This document shows, piece after piece, positions 24,560 to 32,375 of a DNA stretch of 64,000 nt. The DNA comes from Methanolobus tindarius DSM 2278 (lineage in GTDB: Archaea > Halobacteriota > Methanosarcinia > Methanosarcinales > Methanosarcinaceae): NCBI RefSeq assembly GCF_000504205.1, contig NZ_AZAJ01000001.1:2454879-2518878 (forward strand). The letters run 5' to 3'. The position numbers were made by a program, and so were the translations under genes. Every line of letters begins with the position of its first letter. The stretch's first letter is position 1. The notes under the pieces were generated by a model. That model ran no database searches. It had not been told where the DNA came from and saw nothing but the letters and a program-made list of their open reading frames with translations.

Positions 24560-25987
24560 TCACTTATCAATAACTTCCCAGTGGCCGCCCTTATCCGGGC
24601 CCACCCGCTTAAGCATTTCTTCACCCTGAAGCTTCTGAATGTTACGCTCTATGGAACGTGGAGTAACTCCTATTATTTCGGAAAGCTCGGCAATTGTGAC
24701 ATGCTGATTCTTCTGAACTTCATGTAATATTTTCTCCGACGTTTTCTCCGACGTTTTCTCCGACGTTTTCTCCGACGTTTTCTCCGACACTTTTTCAGGA
24801 ATGACATCTTTTTCCAGTGGGAAAGTGATCTTATAATGATCTATATCGCTTGCAACCTCAGGTTCAATCTCATAATACGACTTCCAGCCGCTAAACATTT
24901 TGTCAAAGCCTGAGCCTGCGTTTTCGGAGAGTTTGATGACCCTGAATATTTTAGCGATAATAGGGTTTCTTGGCATCGTGAAATCTTCTTTTATGATGGA
25001 TTCGATATCTTTTGGAAGGCTGCCGGGATTTAAGAATTCTATTCTGTCGAGAAAAACTCTTATCCGTGGTTTCATTGGGCTGAAATAATCGCAGTGCATC
25101 AGCAGATTCACAAGAGCTTCACGAATAGCAACAAGCTGGGGCTGGTTGTCAGTGGCAAAGCCATCAGCTCTTAAAGTGAAAGGCAGGTCTATCTTTTTGA
25201 TAAGGCGTTCAAAAATGCTGAAATAGAACCGGAAAAGATTCTCTTCCTCAGAAAGCCTGTAATTATATCGGGTCGGTGCATCGGAATAAGACGTACCCAT
25301 GATCTCAAGATAATCAATTCTGAAATCTGTAAGCATGCGATTGATATTGTCTTCATTTCCAAAGACCAGTAAACCGCCGATAGTTACTTTTCCATCGACT
25401 ACGACCTGTAACTTCTCCAGCAATTGTTCCGTTGATAGTTTGTTATATCTGTGCTCAGGGTTTACATTCTCAAGATAAGTCTTGTAATCAGAGATCGTCC
25501 TCTCATCCAGGTCATCAATGGTAAACTCAGTAAGTTCCTTATCCTTCAAACCGAAGGAAGAATCTCTATACATAGCATCGATCTCAGCATCTGTTGCTCT
25601 CTGGTCTCCGCTGCCGGTTCGTATGAACGTATTTTTCCTCGAATTGAAATAGACTGGCTTCTGCCCGGAAGCAGGAACATAAAAAGCAAGCACGATTTTT
25701 CCATCAAAATCATACTTTATACTTCTTACCCTGATTTTCTGGTTGAACTTGTCCCCACGAAGAGTGGTGGTAAAATCCTGCTCGATCTTTTCGGCGTCTG
25801 TAACACCTGTAATCTCAAAAGTCTTCTTCGTTTGCTTTACTCCAAAAACAAGCCAACCACCATTAGTATTGGAAAATGCACTCACCGTTTCAAAACTGCT
25901 CTTAGGAATAGAGGACTTCGCCTCTTTTACTTCAAAATCTTCCCACTCAAGCTCTTCCAGCCGGTCGAACAGTTCTGTTTTATCCAT
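24560..25987 (-). CDS. AlbA_2 (Schlafen-like) / ATPase / winged-helix protein
   Basis: The protein is 475 residues from ATG 25987 (SD AGAGGAAAC). The N-terminal AlbA_2 domain contains EWEDFEVKEA and FSNTNGGWLVFGV. The middle holds a GHKL-like ATPase (REALVNLLMHCDYF, NAGSGFDKMF). The end is a winged helix (VTIAELSEIIGVTPRSIERN, LKRVGPDKGGHW). A low-complexity linker of SEKT repeats separates ATPase and DNA-binding parts. Family members are annotated as putative transcriptional regulators or RecG-like ATP-binding proteins; Schlafen-type AlbA_2 domains also occur in defence proteins. It lies tail-to-tail with the Msr-type gene and downstream of the TIR-like fusion gene on the same strand. Confidence 0.82.
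   Translation of the reverse strand: MDKTELFDRLEELEWEDFEVKEAKSSIPKSSFETVSAFSNTNGGWLVFGVKQTKKTFEITGVTDAEKIEQDFTTTLRGDKFNQKIRVRSIKYDFDGKIVLAFYVPASGQKPVYFNSRKNTFIRTGSGDQRATDAEIDAMYRDSSFGLKDKELTEFTIDDLDERTISDYKTYLENVNPEHRYNKLSTEQLLEKLQVVVDGKVTIGGLLVFGNEDNINRMLTDFRIDYLEIMGTSYSDAPTRYNYRLSEEENLFRFYFSIFERLIKKIDLPFTLRADGFATDNQPQLVAIREALVNLLMHCDYFSPMKPRIRVFLDRIEFLNPGSLPKDIESIIKEDFTMPRNPIIAKIFRVIKLSENAGSGFDKMFSGWKSYYEIEPEVASDIDHYKITFPLEKDVIPEKVSEKTSEKTSEKTSEKTSEKILHEVQKNQHVTIAELSEIIGVTPRSIERNIQKLQGEEMLKRVGPDKGGHWEVIDK
24730..24788. repeat. 12-bp tandem repeat encoding SEKT units
   Basis: Unit TTTTCTCCGACG is repeated four full times plus one 11-base partial copy, with no mismatch. On the minus strand it encodes SEKT four times and a final SEKI in the linker of the AlbA_2/HTH protein. 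A 12-base period keeps the frame, so copy-number change would only alter linker length. Confidence 0.95.
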
Positions 25988-26176
25988 GTTTGAGTTTCCT
26001 CTATTTCTCTTGTTGTAATTTCCTGGTTTCACTTTTTTGGTGTTCGCATTGCAGATACCCTAGTTAGCAAATTTTGTATATACAGTTGTAAAATGTTAAA
26101 ATAGAACTTCTTGAATTAGGGTTGTGAAGTTTATATTATTTTTTTAAAATTCTTCTTGGAATGAGCAATTTAGAGA

Positions 26177-27607
26177 TTAGGCATACTCTCTTATCACTTT
26201 GAATTCAAGATTATCTGAGTCAGCAACTTTTAATTTCATGCCTTCTGCAATTTCTTGTATTGAATTTTTTCTTAAAAGTATTGGGTCTTCATTCACCATA
26301 ATCATTGAACTATCGGCAATACGGTCAACTATCAAAACATCAAATTTGTCACCGATTTCAAGCTCAATGATGTTTTCGTAATCAATTAGCCAGATGCCTT
26401 CGACTACAACAAGGCTGTCTATCTGACCCTGAAACACATTAGTTACATTCACTCTAAAAACTTCAACGTTACTCTCATCTGCAATATTGACATTATGTAT
26501 CCATGTTCCATCTGTTTTCTCATCGACAAGGATTACTTTATCTTCAATGAATTCACCATCTTTTGAGAATTCCATCCAAACCTTGTTACCTACTACATCA
26601 ATCTGCTTTGCGGTAAGTTCATAGCCACCACCGAGTTCAAGTGTGGAACCAATTCTCAGGGTGTACTTGTCATCACTGTCAATAATTAGATTAGTCAACT
26701 TGTTTGGTGTATTATCCTTTAGTGATACATACACATCTCCAAATAATTCCATGACATTATAGGTGTCTTCCCATGCACCATATTTAAAATCAATCTGCTG
26801 GATTTGGGTTTCATATATAAGTCCATCTCTCTTAATATATCTATTATCGACAAAAGACCCACCATAAATCTTGAGTTTTTCCTGCGAAATGAACCCTGCA
26901 AAGTTAGTTGCGTTTATTTCAATAAACTTGCCATCATCTAAACCAATTATATTGTGAAGGTCTGCACCAGTGTATGTTATGTCGCCCTCGTAAACAGCAC
27001 CTACTGCCGGTTTATTGGTAGATCTCACCCTTTCCGCCAAAGAGTTATTTGTTTTATTTTTCTTGAGGAAAGACAATGTTTTTTGTTTTGAAACGCTTTT
27101 ATGAATTTCCTTAAAATTAGAAATATTGTTCTGATTTGCTAATTCAATGAACTGATTATCAGGAATATTTTTATTATTTTCAAACCATTCAAATTGTTTT
27201 TTTAACCTTTGAGATAATTTCTTCAACCCAGTACCTGTATTATCATATTCTATATATCTTGAATGTGCAATGTCAAAAGGAAGCGGAACATCACTTTTTT
27301 CTTTGATTAAAATAGTTCCTATTTTGCATGCGTGCCTAAGTCCTAATTCATAAAATACATTTGGATTTGGAAAAGTAATATCTGCAACTACATAATCAGA
27401 AGTCATTAATCTTTTTAGAATATCATTTGTAATAACTCCTGGTATATCAACATCGTCTGCACGTGTTACGTCCAAATCAGGTTTCGCTCTTAAAATAGCT
27501 TCCTTTATGAGGTCATCATATTTACTTCGAAGACTTTCAGCAGAAATCATTTCATCTCCGATTTTTTGATTTCCGATTGGCATTATCACAAAACAAGTTT
27601 TAACCAT
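26177..27607 (-). CDS. TIR/deoxyribosyltransferase-like domain fused to an S-layer (DUF1608) domain
   Basis: This is one uninterrupted 476-residue frame. Residues 1-140 show a Rossmann-like fold of the nucleoside 2-deoxyribosyltransferase/TIR-like type: CFVIMPIG (5-12), ADITFPNPNVFYELGLRHA with candidate catalytic Glu87, and PFDIAHSRYIEY. A lysine/asparagine-rich linker (145-195) follows. Residues about 196-476 match a complete Methanosarcina S-layer domain (PF07752/DUF1608): KYTLRIGSTLELGGGYELTA, KVWMEFSKDGEFIEDKV, NVFQGQIDSL, GIWLIDYENIIELEIGDKF. No signal peptide or membrane helix is visible, so the protein should be cytoplasmic, although S-layer domains are normally exported. TIR-like domains often cleave NAD or bind nucleotides in defence. 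Function here is unknown. Confidence 0.75.
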   Translation of the reverse strand: MVKTCFVIMPIGNQKIGDEMISAESLRSKYDDLIKEAILRAKPDLDVTRADDVDIPGVITNDILKRLMTSDYVVADITFPNPNVFYELGLRHACKIGTILIKEKSDVPLPFDIAHSRYIEYDNTGTGLKKLSQRLKKQFEWFENNKNIPDNQFIELANQNNISNFKEIHKSVSKQKTLSFLKKNKTNNSLAERVRSTNKPAVGAVYEGDITYTGADLHNIIGLDDGKFIEINATNFAGFISQEKLKIYGGSFVDNRYIKRDGLIYETQIQQIDFKYGAWEDTYNVMELFGDVYVSLKDNTPNKLTNLIIDSDDKYTLRIGSTLELGGGYELTAKQIDVVGNKVWMEFSKDGEFIEDKVILVDEKTDGTWIHNVNIADESNVEVFRVNVTNVFQGQIDSLVVVEGIWLIDYENIIELEIGDKFDVLIVDRIADSSMIMVNEDPILLRKNSIQEIAEGMKLKVADSDNLEFKVIREYA

Positions 27608-29515: not shown

Positions 29516-31108
29516 TCATATGGACTGTGGTTTGTCCATCAGTTCCATATTGGTTTTAAGTATCTGTGAGAATACTTCGTTCTTTTTAACATCACACCTT
29601 GCTTCCTCAAGGTTTCTTTTAAGTTCCGCAACAGATGATTCAAGACTCTGTATGTAGATTGTCTGCTGTTCCAGCTTATTGTTGAGCTTCTTAATGTCAA
29701 GGTTCTGACGATGAATAGTAACATGATTTCCGATCTCACTGTTTGTTTTCTCGATCATTTCATCAAGTTCTTTTCTTTTATCTTCCATCTCAGCAAGCAT
29801 TTTTTCCATCTCAGCTTCAAACTTTGAATTCTCCTCACGCTTCTGGTCAATATTCTCGCTTTCAGCTTTAATCTCAGCTTTCTTAGCTTCAAGAGCATTC
29901 ATATCTTCCTGGAAAGCACGCTCCTTCTCTTCATGAGCCCTGACATTTTCTTCATGCTTTAACCTGAGTTCTTCACGCTCGGCATCAATCGCAGCCTTTC
30001 TCTCCTCAAAGGTCGCCTCAAAGGCTCTGATGTTCTCCTCATGCTCCAGCTTAATCCTTTCACGTTCGGCTTTAAATTCTGCTTTCTTTTCATCAAAAGC
30101 CTTTATCTTTTCTTCAAAAGAAAGCTCCTTTTCCTGATGCTCTTTAAGCCTTTCTTCATAGCCAGCAACAGTACTCTCAAGTTCTTTTGCCTTGTTTCCA
30201 ATGTCAGAAATATCAGTCTGGATGTGCTCTCTCATCTTCTCAATGGAAGAGCGTTTTTCATTCAGAAGTGATTCATCATCTTCTAACTGTGTTTTTATTG
30301 TCTGGAAATCTGCTTTTTTCCTGTTAAACTCTTTCAGCTCTGAATAATATCCAGCCTTAATAACTTCAAGTGCTGCCTGTGATGTTGCTTTAGTGAACTC
30401 AATGGATAGCTCTTCTCCCTTTAAAAGCTGCTCTTCAAGTATCCTGCATTGTTCATCCAGCTCGGATCTCTTTGCTTTGTACTGTTCAAATTCAGTTTCA
30501 TAAGCTAATCTCAGGGAATCAAGTTCATCCTTTTTAGCTTTATATTCAGCAAAATCCTTCTCATGTTTCTGTCTGGATACTTCAAACTCTTTGACACGGA
30601 CTTCAAGTTCCTCACGCTTCTTTTCAAATTCAGCAATCTCTTTTTCAAGATCATCTTTCTGGTCTTGTGAAATAGCCTTATTTGCTCTTTCACTGGCAGA
30701 TTTTATGATAGAACACTTTTTGCGGAGTTGTTTTTCCTGTTCGCTAAATTCATTTTTAAGCTTATCAAGTTCTTTCTGCTTGCTTTCATACTCGCTAATT
30801 TCAGACTCATAGCGTTCTCTGATTTTAACGAGTTCAGCTTCTTTCTCAATAAGTCCCTCTATATTGGAATTGAAACCCTCCGGAATATTAACTACCTGGG
30901 TTGATGCCTGAGTAGAAATATTAGAATTACTGGAAAAAGTGTCATCATTTTTATCGGATGCAGGTACATAGTTCTGAGGACCTGATGAAGCATTATTTAC
31001 GTCTTCATGTTCCTCTTTCATAACGGGCTTGCGGTAGATATTAGGGGTGAATACCTTGGATGAATTATCATTTTCCTTGTTCCTACCTGTTAAGTTCAAT
31101 GGATTCAT
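29516..31108 (-). CDS. Long coiled-coil protein, partner of the actin-like ATPase
   Basis: The 530-residue protein has a disordered Ser/Asn-rich N-terminal tail of about 95 residues and then almost continuous coiled coil to about residue 525. Repeated segments rich in EEKIKAFDEKKAE and LKHEENVRAHEEKE indicate internal duplication. No membrane helix, Walker motif or SMC hinge is visible. Its start overlaps the stop of the upstream actin-like gene by four bases (ATGA), so the two are translationally coupled. A filament-binding or scaffold role is inferred. Coiled-coil prediction cannot by itself assign homology. Confidence 0.8.
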   Translation of the reverse strand: MNPLNLTGRNKENDNSSKVFTPNIYRKPVMKEEHEDVNNASSGPQNYVPASDKNDDTFSSNSNISTQASTQVVNIPEGFNSNIEGLIEKEAELVKIRERYESEISEYESKQKELDKLKNEFSEQEKQLRKKCSIIKSASERANKAISQDQKDDLEKEIAEFEKKREELEVRVKEFEVSRQKHEKDFAEYKAKKDELDSLRLAYETEFEQYKAKRSELDEQCRILEEQLLKGEELSIEFTKATSQAALEVIKAGYYSELKEFNRKKADFQTIKTQLEDDESLLNEKRSSIEKMREHIQTDISDIGNKAKELESTVAGYEERLKEHQEKELSFEEKIKAFDEKKAEFKAERERIKLEHEENIRAFEATFEERKAAIDAEREELRLKHEENVRAHEEKERAFQEDMNALEAKKAEIKAESENIDQKREENSKFEAEMEKMLAEMEDKRKELDEMIEKTNSEIGNHVTIHRQNLDIKKLNNKLEQQTIYIQSLESSVAELKRNLEEARCDVKKNEVFSQILKTNMELMDKPQSI

Positions 31109-32142
31109 ACTATCATTTCCTTATTTTTGTTTTCAGCATTCAGCTGAGTCCAGAATTCCGGTGGCATATTCTTTGCAATTTCAAGTGCACCTTCTGAGAT
31201 CCCGTATACAGGATCGATATCACAAATGACTTTACCACCGCCAAGCACCTTCAGTTCGTTCTCGATAAAAATATCAAGCCCCTCAAGGTCGCTGGTCCCC
31301 CCTAAAATATGGATGTTGTTCCTTAGTTTTTCACGCAATTCCGGTTCAATATCAGATATCAGTTTGATAATTCCCGATACAATATCCGTTACAACGAATT
31401 CACATGCCAGTTGCAACTCTTCAATAATAGATTCCTGAACATTGCCACTTTCAAGAGGTACGTCAACGACACATGTGTCCGGAGCTGAAACCAGCCGGCC
31501 GTATTTCTCTTTCCATTCACTGGCAAGTTCCTCGGTTACTTTTGAATCTTCCCACCTTTCGCTAATGAGCTTAACAATTTCAGAATCAATATCTTTCCCG
31601 GCACATGAAAGTCTCAGGCAATCATTTTCCCTGGGAACTTCACTGTCAATTATGGATATATCTGTTTTACTGTACCCAATATCCACTATAATGGATTTGT
31701 CAGGAAGATTATTCTTGTAGGATGCACAAAAGAGTTCATCGACAAGCATAGCACCTGAAAATACCTCATTTGCAAGCTCAAGGAATTTACGTTTGTATTC
31801 TCTGCTTGCATTAGAAGGAGTTCCAAGTATCGCATACTTATCTCTGCTTGCGTCAACATCGTGCTTTTCAAGAATGGATTTCAGGAACTTTCTGCAAGCG
31901 TCTATGTCTTCCTCTGTCCGGAGTTCACCTTTGAAAAGCTCTATTATATTCCCATCTTCCAGTTCAAGTGCATCCTTGCCGGATACTACTTTTTGTTCCT
32001 GGTTGTTGCTGCCCTCAGTGGAAACAACAACTGCACTGCGTTCTGTGAATTTTTTACCTTCACTGGTACACACAGATGTTTTGAACATTCCTGCATCTAT
32101 TCCAATATACAGGCTATTGTCACTGGTTGTCTGATCTTCCAT
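31105..32142 (-). CDS. Actin/MreB-like ATPase
   Basis: The 345-residue protein shows the actin-superfamily signature in order. Phosphate-1 is YIGIDAGMFKTSVC, connect/phosphate-2 is IIVDIGYSKTDISI (preceded by GAMLVDELFCASYKN, like the MreB/MamK LVDEP segment), and the adenosine motif is IHILGGTSDLEGL. Length fits MreB, MamK, ParM or Ta0583 rather than Hsp70. No N-terminal amphipathic helix was obvious. A TATA-like TATATAAATAC lies about 100 bases upstream in its direction. It is coupled to a long coiled-coil gene, suggesting a cytoskeletal or positioning system. Polymerisation is not provable from sequence. Confidence 0.78.
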   Translation of the reverse strand: MEDQTTSDNSLYIGIDAGMFKTSVCTSEGKKFTERSAVVVSTEGSNNQEQKVVSGKDALELEDGNIIELFKGELRTEEDIDACRKFLKSILEKHDVDASRDKYAILGTPSNASREYKRKFLELANEVFSGAMLVDELFCASYKNNLPDKSIIVDIGYSKTDISIIDSEVPRENDCLRLSCAGKDIDSEIVKLISERWEDSKVTEELASEWKEKYGRLVSAPDTCVVDVPLESGNVQESIIEELQLACEFVVTDIVSGIIKLISDIEPELREKLRNNIHILGGTSDLEGLDIFIENELKVLGGGKVICDIDPVYGISEGALEIAKNMPPEFWTQLNAENKNKEMIV

Positions 32143-32375
32143 GTAATCAACTACTTGTTTTTAAGACCCACATGGAATTACAACAAAATACATGGGATCC
32201 GTTTTTCTTAATAAAAGTTGATTCGATTAAATCAGTATTTATATATTATGAACATAGGATTTGCAGTTATGGCTATACTTTCAAGTCAATAAAATCCATA
32301 AAAGATAAAAAAAGGTAGCTATATACTGTTTTTTGAAAAAATGTTTCATGTCCAAAAACACGGAATATATGAGAG

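Follow-up and report, generated by a model that had tools for sequence, protein, structure and literature searches.

Among described archaeal systems, crenactin, which belongs to the eukaryote-like branch of actins, resembles the locus reported here in being an archaeal actin with a regulator (arcadin-2) encoded alongside. The nearest solved structure, by sequence as well as by fold, is MamK, the magnetosome-organising actin of Magnetospirillum (PDB 5ljv, 5ljw and 5jyg). In Desulfovibrio magneticus, a network of MamK and Mad coiled-coil proteins places the magnetosomes, and this is counted here as a published precedent for a filament acting together with a coiled-coil protein (PMC12748827); the likeness, of a MamK-family actin with coiled-coil proteins, is one of role, whereas the Mad proteins belong to a magnetosome gene cluster and to a bacterium. 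Salactin, a euryarchaeal, MamK-related actin homolog of haloarchaea in the same phylum, forms dynamic filaments from the poles and has a suggested role in DNA partitioning (PMC10746226). ArlCDE, the switch complex of the archaellum, is related to a domain of the partner protein discussed below in most of its lineages; it binds CheF and ArlH, and contact with the polar cap has been proposed for it (PMC8978795).

The window (the whole stretch of 64,000 nucleotides of Methanolobus tindarius DSM 2278 that was analysed) contains two minus-strand genes that an earlier note, made from the sequence alone, had described as a 345-residue actin-like ATPase and a 530-residue coiled-coil protein with a four-base overlap of stop and start codons. 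This description is confirmed (P0001 and P0002; Table 1). Most close Methanolobus keep the four-base overlap; in the other members the overlap is of one base, or the two genes are separated by gaps of no more than 46 bases. Compared with four close relatives, dN/dS is approximately 0.10 to 0.14 for the ATPase and its partner alike; both genes are under purifying selection and are therefore functional, although the ATPase of one close pair (L048/L049) has a dN/dS of 0.45. Given these low values and the significant Pfam and NCBIfam matches of the ATPase, the two reading frames are not a product of chance.

Table 1. Features of the actin-partner locus, in positions of the window.
Feature	Position	Strand	Basis and remarks
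MamK-like actin-fold ATPase P0001	31105..32142	-	345 aa; open reading frame, NCBIfam and Pfam matches, AlphaFold2 model
Coiled-coil partner P0002	29516..31108	-	530 aa; open reading frame, directly 3' of the ATPase in 26/26 ATPase-bearing Methanolobus, AlphaFold2 helix
ATGA overlap of ATPase stop and partner start	31105..31108	-	Sequence; kept in most close Methanolobus
Phosphate-1 loop GIDAGMFKT (residues 14-22)	32077..32103	-	Departs from DLGT consensus; alignment with MamK and relatives
Phosphate-2 loop VDIGYSKTD (residues 153-161)	31660..31686	-	Departs from GAGTTD consensus; alignment; D154 kept in 26/26 Methanolobus
E136, aligned to MamK E143	31735..31737	-	Lost in 10/26 Methanolobus
Adenosine motif LGGTSDL (residues 280-286)	31285..31305	-	Aligned with MamK AGGGSRI
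FTPNIYRKP motif (partner residues 20-28)	31025..31051	-	In disordered, low-confidence N-terminal tail
C-terminal module (partner residues 463-525)	29534..29722	-	Profile alignment, four-lineage alignment, shuffle control
Promoter-like block TTCATAATATATAAATACTGATTTAAT	32226..32252	-	Conserved in aligned Methanolobus upstream regions; putative promoter

P0001 matches the NCBIfam models of MamK (NF040964, 1.7e-62) and BeeR (7.8e-27) and the Pfam families MreB_Mbl (6.6e-16) and Actin (8e-10), and its best sequence match in the PDB is MamK (4.7e-40, 27-28% identity). The AlphaFold model (57 sequences; pLDDT 87.8, pTM 0.86) has the MamK filament 5ljv as its top structural match (Z 36.7, rmsd 2.6, 316 residues), ahead of BeeR (Z 33.7), MreB (31.9) and actins (approximately 31), and the actin fold spans the full protein, its alignments to MamK, MreB and actin covering 304 to 330 residues (Z 31-37). 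The claim of an actin-like ATPase thus stands up to structural comparison, the best match being a polymerising actin and not DnaK or PilM; judged by its model, P0001 belongs among the MamK-side actins and not with proteins of the Hsp70 or PilM type. It lies below the MamK cut-off (211 versus 400 bits for NF040964, on which Methanoperedens scores 394, family f3 371 and bacterial relatives up to 436 bits). P0001 passes Pfam MreB_Mbl (58.5 versus a cut-off of 27) and is under the cut-offs of the NCBIfam MreB models (NF010539, 47.9 versus 293; TIGR00904, 35.9 versus 365.75), of BeeR (NF053558, 94.2 versus 530 bits) and of salactin (PF25229, 20.3 versus 27.1 bits); it is outside the salactin family also in having no match to NF053533 at E values up to 1, and PADLOC gave no match for the ATPase.

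Within the family, the ATPase is present in 26 of 27 Methanolobus genomes and in three genomes of a second genus (g14), and within the order it occurs in 54 of 185 genomes, which belong to Methanolobus, g14, family f3 and family f5 (which includes Ca. Methanoperedens); no match came from any of the named Methanosarcina-type genomes. In the sampled phylum beyond the order, all other matches are weak (1e-11 to 1e-13), and the two that were scanned are salactin-like; the bacterial relatives aligned are 23-32% identical to P0001. In a midpoint-rooted tree with salactin on the far side, and with long branches flagged, the archaeal ATPases form one clade (support 92/82), confined to Methanosarcinales and distinct from the salactins, which occupy a long branch of their own. 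Methanoperedens branches first, then f3, then g14, and Methanolobus is nested on a long stem. The archaeal clade adjoins the bacterial group that holds the sole MamK row (92/82 and 90/71), and salactin is distant. Loss of the pair in Methanolobus genome G047 was considered and set aside: on the side expected to bear the pair, the contig ends approximately 220 bases beyond ppx, so absence there is not established. Bacterial MamK-like genes (of Acidobacteriota, Desulfobulbaceae and others) lie just 3' of, and often overlap, a gene for an N-acetylmuramoyl-L-alanine amidase (Amidase_3), which was found in 12 of the 12 upstream proteins scanned (L091, L092, L094, L096, L097, L105-L107, L110, L112, L121 and L134).

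The partner is encoded directly 3' of the ATPase in all 54 ATPase-positive genomes: the 26 of Methanolobus and, by profile search, 19 of 19 in f5, six of six in f3 and three of three in g14. Eight f5 (Methanoperedens) genomes without the ATPase are also without the partner, a profile search finding only other Arch_fla_DE genes in them. Gene order across Methanosarcinales, to which the earlier note had looked for support, is thus conserved wherever the ATPase is present, but the pair itself is not order-wide. Long reading frames in two genomes (G174 and G158) are not actin-adaptor fusions but read-through of an in-frame stop, since the adaptor shares the frame of the ATPase and begins just behind that stop; in Methanoperedens, some ATPase genes end in TAG and others in TAA, so that neither fusion nor conserved read-through is supported. 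Beside the partner, no flanking gene at the inspected loci was observed to be common to every lineage, and context therefore does not name a cargo. Whereas MamK organises magnetosomes, no magnetosome genes are among the neighbours of the pair at the locus, and, to the extent checked, P0002 is not among the known partners of MamK. No gene for an ArlD/E-type partner was detected beside the salactin loci inspected.

Partner length ranges from approximately 190 to 1943 residues between lineages. The Methanoperedens partners (190-209 residues) consist of an Arch_fla_DE domain (PF04659; 5e-13 to 5e-17 in four scanned) and a coil; those of g14 begin with the same domain (3e-6 to 4e-7), as do those of f3, the open frames of which reach 1943 residues. 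Two of the f3 frames, of approximately 1660 and 1940 residues (L210 and L212, from G125 and G128), are very long coiled coils by archaeal standards. The likeness to ArlCDE lies in this domain at the start, followed by a coil; in contrast to ArlCDE, the ArlD/E-type partner is encoded with an actin and not in the arl cluster, and its domain matches at approximately 1e-9 to 1e-17 versus approximately 1e-26 for other copies. Arch_fla_DE is absent from P0002 and from the two other Methanolobus partners scanned. Because Methanoperedens, f3 and g14 branch before the nested Methanolobus, the distribution is most simply explained if the ArlD/E domain was ancestral in the partner and was lost in Methanolobus.

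In its AlphaFold model (mean pLDDT 74.4), P0002 has a disordered tail (residues 1-79) and a near-continuous helix (80-522). Across 25 Methanolobus partners, the F, P, N, I, Y, R, K and P of the tail motif FTPNIYRKP are invariant and its T is nearly so, and the genome has a single occurrence of the coding pattern for FTPNIYR. At the other end, the last 65 or so residues of the Methanolobus coil align without gaps to the C-terminal coil of the Methanoperedens partner (E 6.5e-8, probability 94.6), other windows of the coil giving no more than 26% in the profile comparison. Among 100 heptad-block shuffles of this module (mean score 19.2), one scored 45.8 against 44.8 for the real sequence and the second best 32.5; as one shuffle matched the real score, the score by itself is strong without being overwhelming, and the case for homology of the module draws also on its position at the C-terminus, the shared motif and the gene context. 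In an alignment of the four lineages, the module has the pattern HR or QR, I..L...LE and a closing N..(L/I/K), as seen in complete partners, some of those of g14 and f3 running off contig ends; it is the only piece found in the partners of all four. That the ends are conserved while the middle varies suggests that the rod is a spacer. Matches of the partner to SMC, Rad50, TPR/MLP, JetC and LmuB were rejected as reflecting coiled-coil composition; PHROGs gave no significant match, and the PDB held no sequence relative of the ArlD/E-type partner except one coiled-coil match.

These results support the earlier reading of the locus and add to it three elements that it had not contained, namely MamK as the nearest family, an ancestral partner of ArlD/E type, and the eroded nucleotide-binding loops of Methanolobus. 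The two genes probably encode a cytoskeletal module for positioning, composed of a MamK-type filament and a dedicated tether or adaptor. The first gene would encode an actin that probably assembles into double-stranded filaments, and the second, which directly follows it in translation, a three-part filament adaptor. The C-terminal helical module of the adaptor, about 65 residues long, probably binds the actin, the rod of lineage-variable length may serve as a spacer or cross-link, and the lineage-specific N-terminal end may be a hook for cargo or for the cell pole. This hook would be the Arch_fla_DE domain in the ancestral form (Methanoperedens, f3 and g14) and the disordered tail with FTPNIYRKP in Methanolobus. 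In a bolder version, put forward tentatively and with less than even confidence, the pair may represent an archaeal actin system for positioning that arose when a MamK-type filament acquired an adaptor related to the archaellum switch. The adaptor would have a coiled-coil rod of evolvable length, one end that stays constant and binds the filament, and another that can be exchanged to suit the cargo; the system could act as a polar-cap scaffold in some Methanosarcinales or position another body in those without archaella.

In a narrower interpretation, which is rather unlikely, the two proteins would position or anchor the archaellum motor together with the chemotaxis apparatus at the cell pole, and the ArlD/E-type domain would touch the motor in the manner of ArlCDE. 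The attractions of this interpretation are the Arch_fla_DE domain that opens the ancestral partner, the known binding of CheF and ArlH by ArlCDE together with the proposed polar cap contact (PMC8978795), the arl cluster in the genome of the window, and the archaellins and further Arch_fla_DE genes present in all Methanolobus and most Methanoperedens genomes. However, G125 (100% complete) and G129 (97%) both have the pair although neither genome gives an archaellin match or contains a second Arch_fla_DE gene, which indicates that the pair is not simply part of the archaellum and weakens an archaellum-only role; Methanolobus is archaellated, yet its partner is without the domain, and the ATPase is absent from many archaellated relatives. 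The presence of Arch_fla_DE in the partner thus does not prove a function in the archaellum, and the domain is better interpreted as an adaptor module. CheF, found in one of 12 genomes, was uninformative as an archaellum marker. The genome of the window also encodes, approximately 58 kb from its arl cluster, an Arch_fla_DE protein of approximately 950 residues (L208, 4814-7666, minus strand; C1, about 870.8-873.7 kb), and such large copies occur across Methanolobus.

The earlier note had the phosphate-1, phosphate-2 and adenosine motifs retained, and their glycines and aspartates (GID.G, VDIG, GG) are indeed kept, G14, D16, G18, D154, G156 and G281 being invariant in the ATPase alignment, but the loop residues are non-canonical: P0001 has DAGMFKT and DIGYSKTD where MamK has DLGTSHT and DIGAGTTD. 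The position aligned with E143, the catalytic glutamate of MamK, is E in 16 of 26 Methanolobus and G, D or S in ten. The ATPases of Methanoperedens and g14 keep MamK-like phosphate-1, phosphate-2 and catalytic motifs (D.GT, GAGT and SEPF); f3 has SDPF. Position 278 of MamK, the site of the published non-polymerising mutant, was uninformative as a marker of polymerisation because D or E is already present in most relatives. The Methanolobus loops are eroded, which suggests that nucleotide turnover there is slow or lacking and that the filament is more static; dynamic filaments are doubtful in this genus because both phosphate loops are off consensus and the aligned glutamate is missing in ten of 26. 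The same substitutions could mark an actin-fold switch that does not polymerise, or barely hydrolyses ATP, with the coiled coil as its scaffold, at least in Methanolobus. This is unlikely: the nearest structures are those of filament formers, the canonical motifs persist in Methanoperedens and g14 and D154 in every Methanolobus, and polymerisation can survive loss of hydrolysis.

The genes flanking the pair in the window and at Methanolobus loci are ppk, ppx, CHAD, OMPDC, deoxyhypusine synthase and an S-layer protein gene. The position of ppk-ppx-CHAD directly 5' of the pair in most Methanolobus loci might point to positioning of polyphosphate (acidocalcisome-like) granules. Although ppk and ppx overlap each other, 233 bases separate ppx from the ATPase, and the pair has its own conserved promoter-like block, the TATA of which lies approximately 103 nt 5' of the ATPase start and is conserved in the alignment of Methanolobus upstream regions; the two genes are probably transcribed as a separate unit. 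At the locus, several Methanolobus, as well as g14 and Methanoperedens, are without the polyphosphate genes, and OMPDC and deoxyhypusine synthase on the other side are equally well conserved, so that plain synteny explains the neighbourhood and a granule-positioning role appears very unlikely. A role in DNA segregation like that of ParM-ParR, with the coiled coil as DNA or plasmid adaptor, is highly improbable: the actin-first, adaptor-second operon and the suggested DNA partitioning by the related salactin (PMC10746226) are in its favour, but the locus is chromosomal, genus-wide and syntenic, and no DNA-binding domain was found in the scanned partners (P0002, other Methanolobus, g14 and Methanoperedens).

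For the filament-and-adaptor module, a search of an open library, with subscription journals and preprints mostly outside its coverage, found no description of the pair, and the papers searched give no actin-type cytoskeleton for Methanolobus or Methanoperedens, in agreement with the earlier note's supposition that such a system was undescribed for this group. The filament type is already known; the archaeal clade with its dedicated partner is undescribed in the literature searched. If the pair polymerises, it would extend MamK-type organisation into methane-cycling archaea (Methanoperedens being an anaerobic methane oxidiser), tie an archaellum switch domain to an actin filament, and provide, in culturable Methanolobus strains, a concrete way into the cell biology of these archaea through two genes. 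The Methanolobus branch, in which purifying selection acts on an ATPase with eroded residues, would then offer a natural test of whether an actin filament can dispense with turnover and still be of use.

Two other genes in the window have unusual domain content. A 476-residue protein (26177-27607, minus strand) combines an N-terminal match to a TIR-type effector (PADLOC, 2.2e-8, residues 58-138) with an S-layer domain in its C-terminal half (PF07752, residues 233-463), an odd fusion with relatives of 499 residues (L032) and 727 residues (L042). Beside it is an AlbA_2/Schlafen-type protein with HATPase_c_4 and HTH domains (24560-26032, minus strand).
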